Shown: positions 1-23,469 of the stretch, one piece after another
Layout of the letters: every line of letters begins with the position of its first letter
Position numbering within the stretch: the stretch's first letter is position 1
Origin: Hirudinaria manillensis
Lineage: Eukaryota; Annelida; Clitellata; Hirudinida; Hirudinidae
NCBI GenBank assembly: GCA_034509925.1
Contig: CM067529.1
Location: 1,194,501-1,258,500 of the forward strand
DNA length: 64,000 nt
Direction of reading: 5' to 3'
The notes under the pieces: generated by a model
What the model was told of the DNA's origin: nothing
The model's input: only the letters and a program-made list of their open reading frames with translations
The model's database searches: none
Program-made: the position numbers and the translations under genes

Positions 1-3000
1 ACGACGTCGTCCAGTCGATCGTTTTCGGCAGGCACGAAATCTTCGTAGTGGAGGACTTGAGGTTTGCCTTCGGTCCTTGGTATGAGCCACAGCCTGGAAC
101 AGTTACAACAAAGTTGTTGATACAACAAAGTAATGTTTGTAAACAAACTTGTAGTATGGTAGAACATTCATTTCCACAGCCAGCTACACAAAGTCACGCT
201 TGTAATTTAAAATGCCGTAAAGTCGTAATGCTAAACTCGTAAACGACGTAATGCAGTCATTTTAGCACCACGAATACGATTACGTTGATATTGTTGGATC
301 CCTAGATCCAATAAATTGAATAATATTTAAAATTATATTGCCGATTAATTATTTTAATAATTAATTTAGTGGCAATATAATTTGAGAATTAAATTGGTGC
401 TATTCAGACTCTTTGGTTATGTACCTTTGACAAATGGATTTATATCGGAAAGTAGAGCGAGAGTAATAGAAACAGCAGATTTCAAGACTTAATCAATTAA
501 GCATTTTACATCTTCCAAGCCATCGGACAACTTTCAATAAACCTGCCCTTCTATAATTAGTTTGAGGACCCTGGGTTATTACATTGGTGTCAGGAGTTGG
601 ATTTAGAGTTAAAGGGTATCCAAAAGTAACTAAAGTAGAAGCTTGTTTAGTTGAAAAGTGAACGATGCCGAAGTACTTGGATGAATTGTACGTGCCTCGA
701 TTGAGACAAGAATTGAGAGAGCGTGGCCTGGATTGGAAAGGCACGAAAGCTGAGATACGAGAGCGACTTGGGACATGGCTGACAGAGAATGGCCATGACC
801 CAGAGGAATACGAATTCGAGAATCCATCCCATAAAAAGATGGATGAATTTCTTGATTTTATGAAAAAGTCCGTAGATGAGATGAGGGAATGTATTAGGAG
901 TATTAGGGGTGATTTGAAAAACAGAGCGGTTCCATGCCAGGATGTCTCGTTGGCTTCGGGTGAAGACTCTGCCGAGAAGAGTCCTGTTGGTTCTTTTGAG
1001 GAGAGCAAAGTGGTGCTTCCATCTTGCGAAGAACAAGGAGAGGAACTCTGCAAAAAGGTTACCAACGAGGAACAAATCATGTCCGTTGTTCCAGGTACCG
1101 TTTCTGGCAGCGTTGGGATGGAGTCATTAGAGGGCACATCCAACCACAGTGCGTGTGTGTCTCCAGAAGCTCTGTGCGTGATGGCAGACTTAGGGAACTC
1201 GACGTTGGAGCCCATAGAGTTACCAGATCAAGTCGAGTCGTCAGCAGGGCCCAGAGAGCTCACGGAGGTTTTAGTGGAGCAAGTGGGGCTTTCGGAGGAG
1301 CCTGTGGGATTGCCGGTGGATCATGTGGAGTTGTTGGTGCAGCTCGAGGAGTTACTGATGAGTCACGTGGAGTTGCCGGTGGAGCACACGGATTTGATGG
1401 TGGAACAAGTAGAGTCTACAGAACAGCCCATGGATTTACCAGCGGATGTTTCGGCTCCATTGGAAATAACAGAAGGGAGTGCTCGGGATTTCAGGAGAGT
1501 GCCTAGCATGGAAAGTGGAGCAGGTGATCCTGAGGAGAGTCTGGGATCTGGCGACATCGTGGAGCAGGAGAGTGTGCATAGAAATGGCGATGTTCCGCGG
1601 CTGAAACTTGCGGGACGCAGAAGTAAAAGGGAGGAGACAGAAATCCCAGAAGATGACAAAGCAAATGGATCTGGGATTTGCAGCCATGAGATTGTTGGAA
1701 GATCGGATCCTATTCCGAGAGTAAAAATGAAAATGGGAATAGATGTCTGTTCGGGACGAACAGATTTAAGGAGGGGGCAGTGTTGGATCCCTAGATCCAA
1801 TAAATTGAATAATATTTAAAATTATATTGCCGATTAATTATTTTAATAATTAATTTAGTGGCAATATAATTTGAGAATTAAATTGGTGCTATTCAGACTC
1901 TTTGGTTATGTACCTTTGACAAATGGATTTATATCGGAAAGTAGAGCGAGAGTAATAGAAACAGCAGATTTCAAGACTTAATCAATTAAGCATTTTACAT
2001 CTTCCAAGCCATCGGACAACTTTCAATAAACCTGCCCTTCTATAATTAGTTTGAGGACCCTGGGTTATTACAATATGTTGCTAAGCGATTACTGTTGTGG
2101 CAAAAGAGACGACGAGAATTTTGCATCCTTTTCAATGCCTTTCGATCAATGTACTGAACCGTCGTCCATTAAGCGAAGCCGATTCTATGTAATTCTCTTC
2201 GTGTACATCCAAGCACTTTCGTGTAATTAATGAAATATTGTTTAGTTCTGTGCATTATTTGCAATTACGTGCATGCTTTTGCGTTTTGGGGGAATGGGAA
2301 ATATTCCAAGATTGAAGATATTATAAATATATAAAAATTATTATCTGCATGACATTGCATTCATTATTGACATGTTAAAAATAAGTTACAAAATAAGTTA
2401 CATTCTCTTAACGAATCCGTTTTGCTCGGTCCACCTTCGAAGTAGCCGGATAAGTGACAGGCAAAAGTCAACTGACAGGCTTCACACAAATTTCATTGGC
2501 AAGGATTTTTAAAGTCAGAAGATTAGCTAGGGTTAGGGTATGAACTGGGTTAGGGTTAGATTATGGTCTGAGTGGGTTTGGTACTAAAGAATCCTGAGAG
2601 TTGTCTTTTTCCTTGTGTCACTTGTCCAGCATTCCAGCATCAACCACAACAGTTTAAACCATCTGAACGACCTCAAACCCCTTCCATAATAGGTGGTGGA
2701 GCCTTCGACCAGCTTCTTGGAAAGTACCATCTGCTCTCCGTCCCTGGTCTTTGAATTGTTGGATCCCATCCAGGTGAGAGTCTCGCAGCTCTTGACGCTG
2801 GCGTCGGAGTTCTTCTTGAGCCAGTCATTGGCTCTATCTACCAGTTTTCTGGAAGTTCGAAATGAATCCAAAATGAGTGCCGTGGATTAGTTTTTAAAAG
2901 GAAAAGTTACGAGTTGTTGCTTACAATCACGCTTCACGAATATTTTGTTGCTTAGAACTTAGACTTAGAATGGATAAATCGATAAATAAATAAATAATGT

Positions 3001-5705
3001 TTATGTTCGTTTTTATTTTTAATTTTATTGTTATATTCTTAACCAGAATAAAAGCAATCAGACGACGAAAAAAAAAACCACGTCCGAACATTTGAATGAT
3101 AACGTTTTAATATTCCGTCCTTCAGGAGAACTTAAACAAATTGCCTAAATTATAAATACAGGTGATTCAACATTTATCAAAACATTAGTAAAAGTTCAGG
3201 GAACAACATGCTAACTACTAATAATTATTCATGTATTCATTTATTTATTCATTCATTCATTCATTCATTCATTCATTCATTCATTCATTCATTCATTCAT
3301 TCATTCATTCATTCATTCATTCATTCATTCATTCATTCATTCATTCATTCATTCATTCATTCATTCATTCATTCATTCATTCATTCATTCATTCATTCAT
3401 TCATTCATTCATTCATTCATTCATTCATTCATTCATTCATTCATTCATTCATTCATTCATTCATTCATTCATTCATTCATTCATTCATTCATTCATTCAT
3501 TCATTCATTAATTCCTTCATTCACGTTATCCAACCGGGTCAAAGCCTGGAAAGCCACAGCACATACCACGATCCAAATCATCCTCTCCGTTGCATCCATC
3601 CTTTTGGTTTACTTTTAATTTTCAAACACGAAATTCCGTAAAAAAAACAAAAAAAAAAGAAAGAAAGAAAGAATATTTCATATCTTCAAACCTGGCACTG
3701 TCATCCACGACATAATCATTGTTGTTATTGTTATCAACAATCGTTGCTATTGTTGTTGTTGTTGTCAACAATCGTTGCTATTGTTGTTGCTATTGTTGTT
3801 GTTATTGTTGTTGTTGTTCTTTCTGCTGTCAATGGTTGTTATTCCATTCATTCGCTCGGGTCAGACGCCATTACAATATTTGCCAAACGCATAAAGTACA
3901 TTGCCTCCATTATTCTCTCCGTCCTGCGACCTGAATTATTCGCTTAATATTAATGAGCCTGCTTAATATTCATGTGGTCTTTTGCGAGCACTACGTGGGC
4001 GGGGCTGGCGAGTCGCCGGTGTCCGTCAAAAATCAATCAGGAGTCTGAGTCATCGTCGGTTGTTCAGACGCCACAAGGTCAAAAGTTCATTCATTCATTC
4101 ATTCACTCGTTCATTCATCCATTTGTTCACTCGTTCATTCATTCATTTGTTCACTCGTTCATTCATTCGTTCATTCGTTCATTCGTTCATTCGTTCATTC
4201 GTTCATTCGTTCATTCGTTCATTCATTCATTCATTCATTCATTCATTCATTCGTCCATTTATTATCAAGTGGAAATCTTTGCTCCGATGCCACTGATGAC
4301 GAAAATGATGACAACATTCTCTGTTGTTGTTGTTGTTGACCTCCGCTGGAAATAAAGTTCGACGAAGATCGTCATGGAAAAAAAAATTTAATCCAATGAA
4401 GGAAATCTCGAGATTTTTCTTGAACGATGACTTGAATCGATGTCTACTGATGTTGTTGTTGTTGTTGAGTTTGAATGTCGTCAACGTCATCGTAGTCGTC
4501 GTCCTCGTCCTTGTTGTTGTTGAAAGACCGGCAAACATGTTTCGACAAAGAGGTTGTCGTTATTTTCAATTGATCACAGGAAGTACAGGAATGACACGCA
4601 AATAAGCACTCCAACAGTAGGATCTAAAGACATCGGCATGTTCGGAGATACGAATGCTTCTTAAGCATGCAATTGCCTTAAAACGTACAGGTTTTAATGA
4701 TCGGGTGCTTAATAATATCAATGAATTTATAAATAAAAATAAAAAAAAACAATAAATTAATAAATTTATTATAATTGAATAATAAATAATTAAAAATTTG
4801 TACTTAAACTCTTGTTTATTCTAATCAATTCATCAATCAGATTCAAAATTAGTGCCAGCAATTATAGGTCGATGTATACGTGCCACAAACACTACGTAAC
4901 AACCTCTTGTCGTAGTTGGAAGATACAATAAACAATTATAATAATAGTTACTCATATTATTGTTATTATTATTATTGTTATTATTATTATTATTATCGCA
5001 ATTATAATAATCATTCAATTATTATTGCACACCTCTGTTGTCATTTGCGCCTGCTCCTGTAACGATTTTTAATATCGCCACCTGCTGGAAAATTTTCATT
5101 TATTCAATTGTTCGTCTGTCCATCCATCCATGCATTCATCCGTTCGTCCATCCATCCGTCCATCCATTCATCCATCCATGCATCCACATATTCTTGTGGA
5201 ATAATAATTCTTTCAAGTGACAGTTCAGCACTGCAGGACCTTTGTCGTGTTTCTGTTCATTTTTAAACACTTTAATCCGTTAAATTATTAATTTATTTGC
5301 TATAATTATTATAATTATCACAATTGTTTGGTAAATTATTACAAATATTCGATAGAAATTGAATTGATTCATTGGAGAAAAAAATTACTTTTACAAATAG
5401 TTGTCGGATTTGCAGGATGAATTTACATTGGAAGGATCGAATTCTACTCACTGGAAAGACTCAGTTTTGATTGAAGTCTGATCTTTTTTAGAGCTGCTGC
5501 TATTGTTGTTGTTGTTATTGTTGTTGTTGTGTTGGTGTGCGGATGCAGAGGAAAAGTCTTGATACTTGAGTTTCCACTGAGTGCGCAGAGAGGTCAGCGA
5601 TGACCTTTTCCTCTGGGATTGTCTCCTCGATCCGGAATCGACGGGGCTCGAAACGGAAGTCGTTCTCACGTGGTTCAAGACGCGCCCCTCTTCCAAAGGT
5701 TCCAT
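1..5705 (-). CDS. Unrecognised gene, three 5' coding exons, truncated by the left window edge
   Basis: The exons are 5452-5705, 2672-2848 and 1-93 on the minus strand. The first starts at an ATG with an in-frame TGA 12 nt upstream. It codes for a basic, serine-rich N-terminus with a polyasparagine run from a GTT/AAC microsatellite, and ends at a perfect GTGAGT donor in phase 2. The second exon begins after CTTCCAG and supplies the missing base; it reads KLVDRANDWLKKN and later CETLTWMG and YYGRGLR. The third continues in phase as LWLIPRTEGKPQVLHYEDF and is open at the window edge. Matching phases at both junctions and clean coding sequence support a real gene. The second domain vaguely recalls uncharacterised invertebrate proteins, but I do not recognise a family. 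No signal peptide or membrane segment is seen. The second intron (94-2671) contains an LTR element and a MITE; the first (2849-5451) contains long microsatellites. Confidence 0.6.
292..583 (+). repeat. 5' long terminal repeat
   Basis: It starts TGTTGGATCC and ends TTACA. The first bases form a small palindrome (TTGGATC, four bases, GATCCAA). A larger stem-loop sits at 331-382, where AATTATATTGCC pairs with GGCAATATAATT around an inner AT-rich stem. An AATAAA lies near the 3' end in both copies and is a candidate polyadenylation signal. The U3/R/U5 limits cannot be set from sequence. Confidence 0.93.
585..602 (+). other. Primer-binding site, tRNA-Leu type
   Basis: TGGTGTCAGGAGTTGGAT starts one base after the LTR ends. 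It is complementary to the 3' end of typical animal tRNA-Leu including CCA, with one mismatch over 18 bases (T where G is expected at position 14). This position is canonical for priming minus-strand DNA synthesis. Confidence 0.8.
665..1819 (+). CDS. SAP-domain protein of the LTR element, Gag-like by position
   Basis: This 384-residue ORF is the only one in the element. Residues 8-39 fit the SAP (SAF-A/B, Acinus, PIAS) helix-turn-helix pattern: basic first helix, then RGLDWKGTKAEIRERL. SAP domains normally bind AT-rich DNA. A short charged helical stretch follows (near residues 50-80). Residues of about 180-260 form degenerate repeats of roughly eight residues built on V-E-L-P-V, probably coiled or extended. 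The C-terminus is basic (KLAGRRSKREETEIPE). There is no CCHC zinc knuckle, protease DSG/DTG or polymerase YxDD motif. The frame runs 39 nt into the right LTR, which supplies the stop. It may be a derived Gag or a captured host gene; its place between primer site and purine tract favours a Gag-like role. Function is inferred. Confidence 0.75.
   Translation: MPKYLDELYVPRLRQELRERGLDWKGTKAEIRERLGTWLTENGHDPEEYEFENPSHKKMDEFLDFMKKSVDEMRECIRSIRGDLKNRAVPCQDVSLASGEDSAEKSPVGSFEESKVVLPSCEEQGEELCKKVTNEEQIMSVVPGTVSGSVGMESLEGTSNHSACVSPEALCVMADLGNSTLEPIELPDQVESSAGPRELTEVLVEQVGLSEEPVGLPVDHVELLVQLEELLMSHVELPVEHTDLMVEQVESTEQPMDLPADVSAPLEITEGSARDFRRVPSMESGAGDPEESLGSGDIVEQESVHRNGDVPRLKLAGRRSKREETEIPEDDKANGSGICSHEIVGRSDPIPRVKMKMGIDVCSGRTDLRRGQCWIPRSNKLNNI
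1768..1780 (+). other. Polypurine tract
   Basis: AAGGAGGGGGCAG immediately precedes the TG of the right LTR. It is purine except for one C, and sits where plus-strand priming occurs in LTR elements. Confidence 0.75.
1781..2072 (+). repeat. 3' long terminal repeat
   Basis: It is the same length as the left LTR and identical by eye, including the stem-loop (1820-1871 here). It contains the last codons and stop of the SAP ORF and the AATAAA near 2034. Confidence 0.93.
2444..2631 (+). mobile_element. MITE-like element, copy A
   Basis: It starts TAGCCGGATAAGTGACAGGC and ends in the inverted counterpart TTGTGTCACTTGTCC. The centre has degenerate GGGTTAGGG-type repeats followed by GGTCTGAGTGGG. 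The same layout, ends and core recur at 57375-57562, which defines a short non-autonomous family with terminal inverted repeats. This copy has more decayed ends than copy B. Its right end is about 40 bp from the 5' splice site of the exon at 2672-2848. No target duplication is evident. Confidence 0.6.
3247..3509 (+). repeat. (ATTC)n microsatellite, about 65 uninterrupted copies
   Basis: 263 bp of pure tetranucleotide within the first intron of the left-edge gene. It creates false long frames reading S-F-I-H repeats. Confidence 0.98.
3719..3826 (+). repeat. (GTT)n-rich microsatellite with a TCAACAATCG interruption
   Basis: GTT/ATT trinucleotides are broken by a duplicated block containing TCAACAATCGTTGCTATTG. 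It lies in the same intron as the ATTC array. A short (AAAG)n run lies just upstream at about 3650-3673. Confidence 0.85.
4084..4258 (+). repeat. Degenerate (ATTC/GTTC)n microsatellite
   Basis: Tetranucleotide array of ATTC with many GTTC variants. It is related in unit to the pure array 600 bp upstream but is older and interrupted. Confidence 0.95.
4260..5451. repeat. Intron remainder with several small microsatellites
   Basis: It contains (GTT)n runs near 4320-4340, 4450-4470 and 4510-4523, (ATT)n at 4956-4998 and (ATCC)n-like DNA at 5118-5187. I see no conserved coding exon here. Confidence 0.8.
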
Positions 5706-21600: not shown

Positions 21601-22636
21601 ATCAAAAAAAGTTCCAAAACCTAATGGTTCTAGCGTCTGAAACTGTCGCCTGCTACGTTGTTTATGGGGAGACATTCGATGTTCAGACGTGTCCGAACAA
21701 AGCCAAACTGAGTTGTAATGTTTGCATTTACTTTGATTTAACTAGACTGCTTCGTAGGTAATTTATGTCGCCGTCTAAATTTTAGAGTTTAGTTTCAATA
21801 AATATCTTCTTTTTTTTTATATGGCAACTTCTCGAGGGGAGAGTTTCGAATTTATTGAAATTCCTAGGATCAATAATCTTTTTCCATCGGATATATTACC
21901 TCTTTTGGTACTTTCTTCCATTTTCCTTTCCTTGTTTTAGCTCCTCTGAAATGTCCCGGAAGTTCGGCTTTTTTACTCGTTATTTTCGACTATAAATCCA
22001 AAAGAATCACTCGTTATTCTCGCGTAATTTACAGACGACCTAGAATTACGATAAGATCCATCGCATCGCTAGACCCAACCTCATGCGGACAGCGGAATCA
22101 TAAAACTTGCTGAACTATTGACCTTCGAACTTCTGTGGCAATTCCTGAAAATTCGTTTCAAGTTCAGAAACCTCTTATGCTAACGGCCTCGGGTTTTTAC
22201 CGGATTTTCCCCTGATTTTCCACCGGATTTTCCCCGGTCATTGTTGTTCATAAACAGATTATGTTCAGAACGTGTCGTGGCGATCCATCACCGGTTGGCA
22301 GGCAAATTAAACATCCAACCTATTCGAAGGTTACTTATGGCTCGGTCGTTGCATTATGAGTGAAAGTGAAAATGAAGGGCGATGTCGCATCAATCAGGCC
22401 GTCACTCCCTTCGTTCGAGCTTCGTTTGCGTGAGAAGATCACTTGGAAAAAGGCATCGTTCGTAAAGCGATTCTCTTCTTTTCTGGTCTTTTACGATTTC
22501 GATTTCATTGGGCTTCTAAAGAGCATCAAGGTTCGAATTGAAAAGAAAGCGAGCCTTCAAGAAACTTCTTTCTTAGGAGTTTTAAATTTTACATATTTTT
22601 TTAAACCGAACTTCAAACCGCGACCTTTTCGTAACC
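18679..22636. other. Sparse region with unplaced exon candidates
   Basis: No complete gene could be built. On the minus strand, 19317-19423 would be a terminal exon (TLSDLPEKVERGE then Asp/Glu-rich to a stop), but the acidic part coincides with a GAC/GAT microsatellite. An ATG frame at 20585-20857 (minus; MAKIKIRPSTTSITPDQYF) has a good start context. A strong GTGAGT donor at about 20510 (minus) follows an open stretch. On the plus strand, 20864-20925 (MLDYSTKEILLFVYILVQTF) ends at GTGAGT. A 91-residue plus frame at 21486-21761 has five cysteines. I could not link them in phase. Confidence 0.3.
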
Positions 22637-22800
22637 ATGGATGGATGGATGGATGGATGGATGGATGGATGGATGGATGGATGGATGGATGGATGGATGG
22701 ATGGATGGATGGATGGATGGATGGATGGATGGATGGATGGATGGATGGATGGATGGATGGATGGATGGATGGATGGATGGATGGATGGATGGATGGATGG
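22637..22800 (+). repeat. (ATGG)n microsatellite, 41 perfect copies
   Basis: 164 bp without interruption. It generates false frames on both strands (MDGW and PSIH repeats). Confidence 0.98.
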
Positions 22801-23469
22801 ATTCGAATTAGAAAAAAAAAGTTAATTTTTTTTTTGTTTAGATAGAAACACATCTCGTGCTTCTCGTTCTGTTTTGATTTCTTTTCCTAAGATTGATCGA
22901 TGCATTGAACTCTACGAGCGAACTGACTGACGGACGGACAGACAGTTTAATAGGAACATGCAACCAAACATTCCAGTCCATTCCAATATGAAAACTCGAA
23001 GGCGTCTCTTTACTGCTTTTGCTTCTAAAAGGATTTCACATTTATTGGTTCTGTCCGAAATAAAGACAGGTTCTTATGTTCGACTTTCTAACTGGTCAGG
23101 GTAGGGGAGAGACGGGAGTTATTTGATGTTTCCATCGCACGAGAGAAAGGTTTTTTCTTGTGTCTTCCGATAACTTCATCATCTCGGACGTACGGAAGAA
23201 TGGTTTGTGGGAGGAGTCGGTGTTAATTAGATCAAGGCCCCACCCATTCATCTAATTAATGCTAATTAGCTTGTTTTTTTTATAGCACGCCAGCTCTACT
23301 CGGGATAGACGAGGTTTCACTTTCGATGTCTTTCGGGAATTTCCGTCATCACTACTTGCCAAGTGCTAGGCGTTGATAAAGAAATTTTTCGGTCATTTGG
23401 GCGGGCGAATGAAAATATTTTGTTAGGATGAAGAGTGCTGCCAATCAATGGTGAAGATCAATCAAAGTT

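Follow-up and report, generated by a model that had tools for sequence, protein, structure and literature searches.

A short LTR element of Hirudinaria manillensis that encodes a SAP-bearing Gag fragment and is a probable satellite of SAP-Gag Ty3/gypsy elements

The window analyzed here is a stretch of 64,000 nucleotides from Hirudinaria manillensis (assembly GCA_034509925.1, contig CM067529.1, positions 1,194,501 to 1,258,500 of the forward strand). At window positions 292-2072, direct sequence inspection located an intact long terminal repeat (LTR) element of 1781 bp. An original prediction, made from the letters alone, had described identical 292-bp LTRs, an ATAT duplication, a primer site, a purine tract, and one open reading frame (ORF) of 384 residues with an N-terminal SAP motif, and all of these are present. 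The features are given below in window coordinates; A and B denote two lineages of relatives in the same genome that carry pol, the region of the element's enzymes.

288..291, no strand: target-site duplication, 5' copy (ATAT)
292..583, plus strand: 5' LTR, with U3 tip TGTTGGATCCCT of family A type, U5 tip GGTTATTACA of family B type, and AATAAA at 536-541
585..602, plus strand: primer binding site TGGTGTCAGGAGTTGGAT, located directly
665..1819, plus strand: ORF of 384 amino acids (aa)
665..919, plus strand: segment homologous to the Gag N-terminus of the pol-bearing relatives (SAP plus helix), about 85 residues
683..769, plus strand: SAP domain, residues 7-35 (PF02037, E 1.4e-6)
920..1740, plus strand: acidic repeat-bearing tail with low predicted structure, size variable among copies (net charge -34, residues 86-371)
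1747..1763, plus strand: perfect palindrome CTGTTCGGGACGAACAG, left over from the 3' end of pol and read in a different frame in the window copy
1768..1780, plus strand: polypurine tract AAGGAGGGGGCAG, located directly
1781..2072, plus strand: 3' LTR, identical to the 5' LTR, with AATAAA at 2025-2030
2073..2076, no strand: target-site duplication, 3' copy (ATAT)

The two LTRs (292-583 and 1781-2072) are identical across all 292 bp and enclose an internal part of 1197 bp. TG...CA LTRs, a target duplication, a primer site, and a purine tract give the element the structure of an LTR retrotransposon. In the window copy each LTR measures 292 bp, 5 bp less than the 297 bp of the seven next-best matches.

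In a Pfam search, the SAP domain (PF02037) of the window ORF scored 28.2 bits against a curated cut-off of 23.9 (E 1.4e-6), while a second SAP model matched weakly (E 0.099). The ORF gave no further Pfam match at E up to 10, and CCHC knuckle, capsid, protease, reverse transcriptase (RT), RNase H, and integrase were all without a match, in agreement with the prediction that both the knuckle and pol are lacking. The Pfam test is weak for the capsid because L069, a pol-bearing relative, also gave no Pfam capsid family; Pfam detects a zinc knuckle in L069 and none in the window ORF. An AlphaFold2 model of the full-length product has a mean predicted local distance difference test (pLDDT) score of 40.8, too low to decide on a capsid. 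A 90-residue model, made to look for the SAP fold, reaches a pLDDT of 70.2, and searching the PDB with it gave no match at E up to 0.001. The ORF product is predicted to be a SAP-coil protein whose acidic tail is probably disordered. The tail has no recognized relative in Pfam, the genome itself not having been searched with it. Duplications or insertions in the tail preserve the frame in L010, L022, L029, L033, and L037 and give ORFs of 397-455 aa.

The genome searched comprises 148,429,096 bases in 23 contigs, 13 large contigs holding most of the 148-Mb assembly. Forty scored places, counting the window, match the element at 98-100%; of these, 39 span it completely and one begins at base 15. 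With up to 3 mismatches allowed, the ORF start is found 286 times (reversed control 0), and these two counts together exclude a chance origin of the element. The U5 end of the window-type LTR occurs 1130 times at up to 3 mismatches (control 0). As a full copy has two LTRs, this number suggests that several hundred single LTRs or other subfamilies exist.

Two sets of loci were inspected, L001-L008 as the best matches to the window and L009-L038 as the first 30 places (C1-C4) with an exact match to the LTR end plus primer site, the ORF not being considered in the choice. Such an exact match occurs at 501 genome sites, of which the examined loci are a small part, and the window copy appears a second time as L036. 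The ORF has at least 344 aa (344-455) in 28 of the 30 primer-site-anchored loci, window copy included, and stops at 49 aa in L028 and at 240 aa in L038. The family is non-autonomous, as predicted, and its ORF is open in most sampled copies. L028 was considered as a possible helper and rejected as a truncated copy fused to other sequence. L030 contains a tandem LTR-internal-LTR-internal arrangement (1256-2900 onward), the second LTR of which has no target duplication.

L001-L038 yielded 28 distinct complete copies (L010, L022, L028, L029, L033, L035, L037, and L038 were excluded, the fetched stretch being without the 3' LTR end). Every one of the 28 has an exact 4-bp target duplication, which is ATAT in 10 and any base plus TAT in 19, and their flanks are 0.61-1.00 AT, where 200-bp stretches of the window average 0.633 (sd 0.081). 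The LTR pair is without substitution in 23 of the 28; the remaining five have one (L006), seven (L009), one (L012), three (L014), and two (L021). The ORFs of L017, L019, L024, and L026 lie 5-10% from that of the window and their LTR pairs have no substitutions, and therefore several lines have been active recently. Ten further sites were taken from the primer-site list for lacking an exact ORF start and a nearby RT place. Three of these belong to family A (L085, L086, L089) and seven to the short family, with the SAP part open in L088, L090, and L091.

The original prediction had invoked a helper with matching ends, and the same genome does contain pol-bearing relatives whose LTR tips, primer site, and purine-tract block match. 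An RVT_1 search scored 150 of 1478 candidate places, many of them in long open frames. L069, of family A, has a single frame of 1677 aa in which Pfam detects SAP, CCHC, aspartic protease, RT, RNase H, and integrase. Its SAP domain (E 2.1e-9, 37.2 bits) occupies residues 42-75, counted in the frame from stop to stop, and a capsid-like stretch was noticed by eye that Pfam did not call. The LTR of L069 starts with TGTTGGATCCCT and ends with GGTTACAACA, and its primer site GGTGTCAGGAGTGGGATT is one base off that of the window and identical to that of many short copies. With up to 3 mismatches allowed, the leader pattern of family A occurs at 117 places in the genome (control 0).

Lineage B is represented by L070, with 90% matches to it over 1.4 kb in L040 and L077, and was sampled as two pieces. 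In the B copy at C12:3552746, RVT_1 matches an open frame at 131.6 bits. Its Gag begins with SAP, as in family A, its pol ends in QPVRDEQI-stop, and its LTR has the U3 start TGTTGTAACCCT and the U5 end GGTTATTACA, its own two LTRs being 98.6% alike. SAP is clear in seven of the nine 5' regions fetched for RT places (L070, L071, L072, L073, L074, L076, L078), and no SAP match was obtained in the other two, L075 and L077. The SAP of L074 is interrupted by a stop, and one of two SAP matches in L071 belongs to a short-family copy. L071 holds a family A element beside or within that copy, for which a nested insertion is the simple reading.

Residues 2-85 of the window ORF align with the Gag of family A (L078) at 51.7% identity over 89 columns. 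A block of 33 nt comprising the palindrome and the purine tract, CTGTTCGGGACGAACAGATTTAAGGAGGGGGCA, is identical in A, the window, L014, and L030 and differs by one base in B. It is exact in 37 of 39 occurrences among the fetched loci (up to 6 mismatches allowed; window copy counted twice) and has 480 genome places at up to 2 mismatches (control 0), all exact among the 100 matches listed. The block terminates the frame as ...VRDEQI-stop in A, B, L014, and L030. A one-base difference upstream of it shifts the frame of the window ORF, the final residues of which extend into the 3' LTR beginning at 1781. The palindrome folds in the window RNA as a 9-bp stem with a 3-nt loop, the folding energy of which is not significant alone (z -1.48; 19 of 200 shuffles equally good). 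The block is nearly invariant across otherwise diverged elements, both those that carry pol and those that do not, and it might act in cis in the priming of the plus strand or in packaging.

To judge by its tips, the LTR seems to be a hybrid. The U5 end GGTTATTACA is present in 38 of 38 loci L001-L038, having been a search condition for L009-L038. The U3 start is of A type, TGTTGGATC, in 36 of the 38 (window counted twice), and a form nearer B, TGTTATAAC, is found in L014 and L030 and also in L090, whose SAP is like that of the window copy. The SAP segments of the window, L014, and L030 have a synonymous divergence (dS) from B of 0.73-0.89 and from A of at least 2.2 or saturated; a tree of this segment groups L030 with B at a support of only 0.65. 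We infer a B-derived satellite, the main subfamilies of which gained the U3 tip of the abundant family A. The simple deletion of one ordinary element was rejected as the whole story because neither lineage has the same LTR, tail, or SAP and because the tips correspond to two lineages at once. Copies elsewhere with pol had been named as grounds for refuting the original prediction, and this is half the case. Related elements do carry pol, but a short internal part is followed by the 3' LTR in 37 of the 38 sampled loci (window copy counted twice), the exception being the truncated L028, and the family has diverged into subfamilies of its own.

With the anatomy, the pol-bearing relatives, the shared blocks, the recent activity, and the open frames observed, we consider it likely that the window element is a non-autonomous satellite of SAP-Gag Ty3/gypsy elements which encodes a Gag fragment and is mobilized in trans, probably by family A. 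Its LTR-driven RNA would retain the LTR tips, the tRNA primer site, the Gag 5' coding region, and the palindrome with the purine tract. The helper Gag would package this RNA, the helper RT would copy it, and the helper integrase would insert the copy with a 4-bp duplication. Family A would be the likeliest helper because it has the same U3 tip and purine-tract block and a primer site at most one base different, and is abundant; in its Gag N-terminus and U5 tip the short element is closer to lineage B. The SAP-coil protein, with its putative and, in the original prediction, nuclear DNA binding, would most likely join the helper Gag via the coil and might aid carriage, tethering, or integration of the element's own RNA or DNA. 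Such a role would explain an open frame in copies that are unable to encode anything else. A bolder proposal, which we hold to be rather improbable, is that the satellite keeps and evolves the SAP-coil protein as a working part serving its own RNA or DNA, by tethering to AT-rich chromatin or by steering helper particles, and that the combination of an A-type U3 with a B-type U5 is an adaptation to the now abundant helper A. If true, the element would be a protein-coding rather than a passive parasite of a retrotransposon.

For the analysis of selection, dropping L028, L038, and L036 and merging identical ORFs left 31 ORFs, from which 11 and then 7 pairs were picked by hand. Introducing 200 unconstrained substitutions into the window ORF gives about 7 stops, and none of 500 simulations was stop-free; the window differs from L014 by 202 substitutions and from L030 by 248 over aligned codons. 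The other frames of the ORF region have 12-30 stops in five copies, frame 1 being open by how the ORFs were cut. Taken together with simulations of the ratio of nonsynonymous to synonymous divergence (omega), these stop counts indicate that the frame is clearly kept open and that amino-acid constraint is weak. We do not claim strong protein selection; the first omega values (11 pairs) had seemed low, and about 0.7 is what simulated neutral evolution yields when the transition share is set as observed. In the SAP segment, nonsynonymous divergence (dN) from A is 0.30-0.39 with synonymous sites saturated or nearly so. When A is compared with the window, L014, L030, and B, values as low arise in 0 of 200 simulations each time; for A69 vs A78 the number is 24 of 200. 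Counts of gaps divisible by 3 in ORF and LTR (59/126 vs 10/78) were not used as a test because global alignments are unreliable for repeat-bearing or divergent pairs. All ORF gaps are divisible by 3 between the window and L009, L013, L018, L019, L021, L024, L027, and L029, and some are not between the window and L012, L020, and L026.

Several results weigh against a satellite with a functional Gag fragment. Over residues 1-360, omega is 0.44-0.69 in the seven hand-picked, non-independent pairs, where neutral simulation means are 0.69-0.77. Simulations as low as observed numbered 10, 5, 72, 19, 13, 126, and 114 of 300, so that three of the seven pairs fall below 5% of the neutral simulations and a fourth stands at 6.3%. 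The SAP segment of the short copies is not clearly distinguishable from neutral relative to B (27, 22, and 16 of 200 simulations) and among the short copies themselves (58, 18, and 142 of 200), and part of the SAP constraint may therefore belong to the pol-bearing elements. Four of the seven further short-family sites, chosen for lacking the exact ORF start, are damaged in the SAP part or without SAP (start codon changed in L082, a stop in L083, no SAP match in L084, a match that breaks off in L087). The ends held in common with a pol element are confined to the LTR tips, the primer site, and the purine-tract block, and it is possible that such short tips are convergent. No pol-bearing element with a closely matching whole LTR was found among the examined loci, a small part of the 501 sites, and the LTRs of A and B are 77-78% identical to the window LTR by global alignment, where five shuffles gave 61-70%.

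The alternative that we take most seriously, although it is doubtful, is a protein without any specific function. The frame would stay open because translating a long ORF protects the RNA or couples it to packaging, and the amino-acid sequence would be nearly free. This agrees with an omega only modestly under neutral simulation (three of seven pairs not below), with a SAP segment not clearly constrained among the short copies, and with a tail of low predicted structure that varies by internal repeats. It fits less well with the three whole-ORF pairs below 5% and with the low SAP dN relative to A at saturated synonymous sites, a contrast that may lie partly on the branches of the pol elements. 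We regard as unlikely a reading in which the Gag 5' coding region was kept as a signal for RNA packaging, with the protein as a by-product. The 5' RNA signals of Ty1 extend into the coding region. The Gag 5' segment is among the few parts that the short element has retained, and translation-start, packaging, and priming signals lie at the 5' end of Ty1 RNA (PMC5454406). However, relative to A, synonymous sites in the window, L014, and L030 have reached or almost reached saturation, and therefore the RNA sequence itself is not conserved, although a structural or B-only signal may exist.

An action of the Gag fragment against its helper, joining and disturbing helper particles as Ty1 p22 does, seems slightly less probable still. 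The precedent is likewise a Gag fragment made beside full Gag (PMC4599808), and the short family outnumbers A, with 286 ORF starts to 117 A leaders (up to 3 mismatches allowed for each). Yet a satellite that damages its helper damages itself. As a known system, p22 differs in being the C-terminal half and in being made from an alternative transcript of its own element. The captured host gene that the original prediction had allowed for is very improbable. In its favor, the tail has no recognized Pfam relative, and the tail alone may have been captured; SAP, however, belongs to Gag in both pol-bearing lineages and the pol 3' end is still present, and host-gene capture of SAP is rejected on the ground that it is the Gag N-terminus of the pol-bearing relatives. 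The description of the element as Gag-only, also made originally, is too generous, with about 85 Gag residues left and no capsid or CCHC match.

Read by eye, the primer site is complementary, with one G.U pair and one mismatch, to a tRNA gene at its 3' end, and this gene is repeated in tandem. This 3' end has 322 genome matches at up to 1 mismatch, 321 of them on one strand. An intron-bearing tRNA gene array lies on C1 from about 4489000 (L079-L081), where all 100 matches listed are found, with a period among them of mostly 246 bp. RF00005 gave 6 matches in L079. ARAGORN found no tRNA in L079-L081 in its default run and called tRNA-Met(CAT) with introns allowed; we take the array tRNA to be, probably, an intron-bearing tRNA-Leu(CAA), an assumption of ours that we prefer to the tool's call. 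Elsewhere in the window, 3208-4355 and 22372-22845 are open frames of short tandem repeats (IHSF, WMDG) and probably not genes.

The finding assigns to the Gag of gypsy elements a predicted DNA-binding domain of chromatin type. We found no description of SAP in an LTR-element Gag in the titles and abstract starts of the open-licence papers listed, which is not proof of absence, and the whole word SAP is absent from PMC2577118 on Ty3/Gypsy gag-pol diversity. A high-copy satellite has retained this domain while losing the enzymes, which raises the testable question of whether a satellite needs its own protein at all and whether a Gag N-terminus alone could direct the RNA or DNA of an element. 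As a naturally reduced element, it also shows which parts of its relatives have persisted: the tips of the LTRs, the primer site, the N-terminus of Gag, and the palindrome adjoining the purine tract.

Compared with the Ty3/gypsy families A and B, the short element has SAP, primer site, LTR tips, pol 3' end, and purine tract in common, but no match for CCHC, protease, RT, RNase H, or integrase, and an acidic tail is added; the domains of an autonomous element are those found in L069. TRIM elements have a very short and LARD elements a long non-coding internal part. The LTRs, primer site, purine tract, and absence of pol are as in these two classes, whereas the short element is coding; its internal part has 1197 bp, 28 of 30 loci have an ORF that reaches 344 aa or more, and it falls outside both definitions. 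TR-GAG elements of plants are non-autonomous LTR elements with a Gag ORF that contains capsid and CCHC, without pol. A Gag-derived ORF and the lack of pol are shared with them, and capsid and CCHC are undetected in the short element, which by Pfam, with its weak capsid test, lies outside the TR-GAG definition. MaLRs have a gag-related ORF. ETn/MusD, MaLR/ERVL, and the mysTR-related ERVK of mammals are likewise non-autonomous with an autonomous partner, matching ends, and mobilization in trans. According to PMC10089650, mysTR-related families have their best-preserved homology directly upstream of the 3' LTR, and there the short element, too, keeps homology. The abundant ERVK satellites of deer mice are described there as without obvious coding capacity, whereas the ORF of the short element is open in most sampled copies and encodes a SAP-bearing Gag fragment. 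Non-autonomous LTR elements with helpers are already well known.
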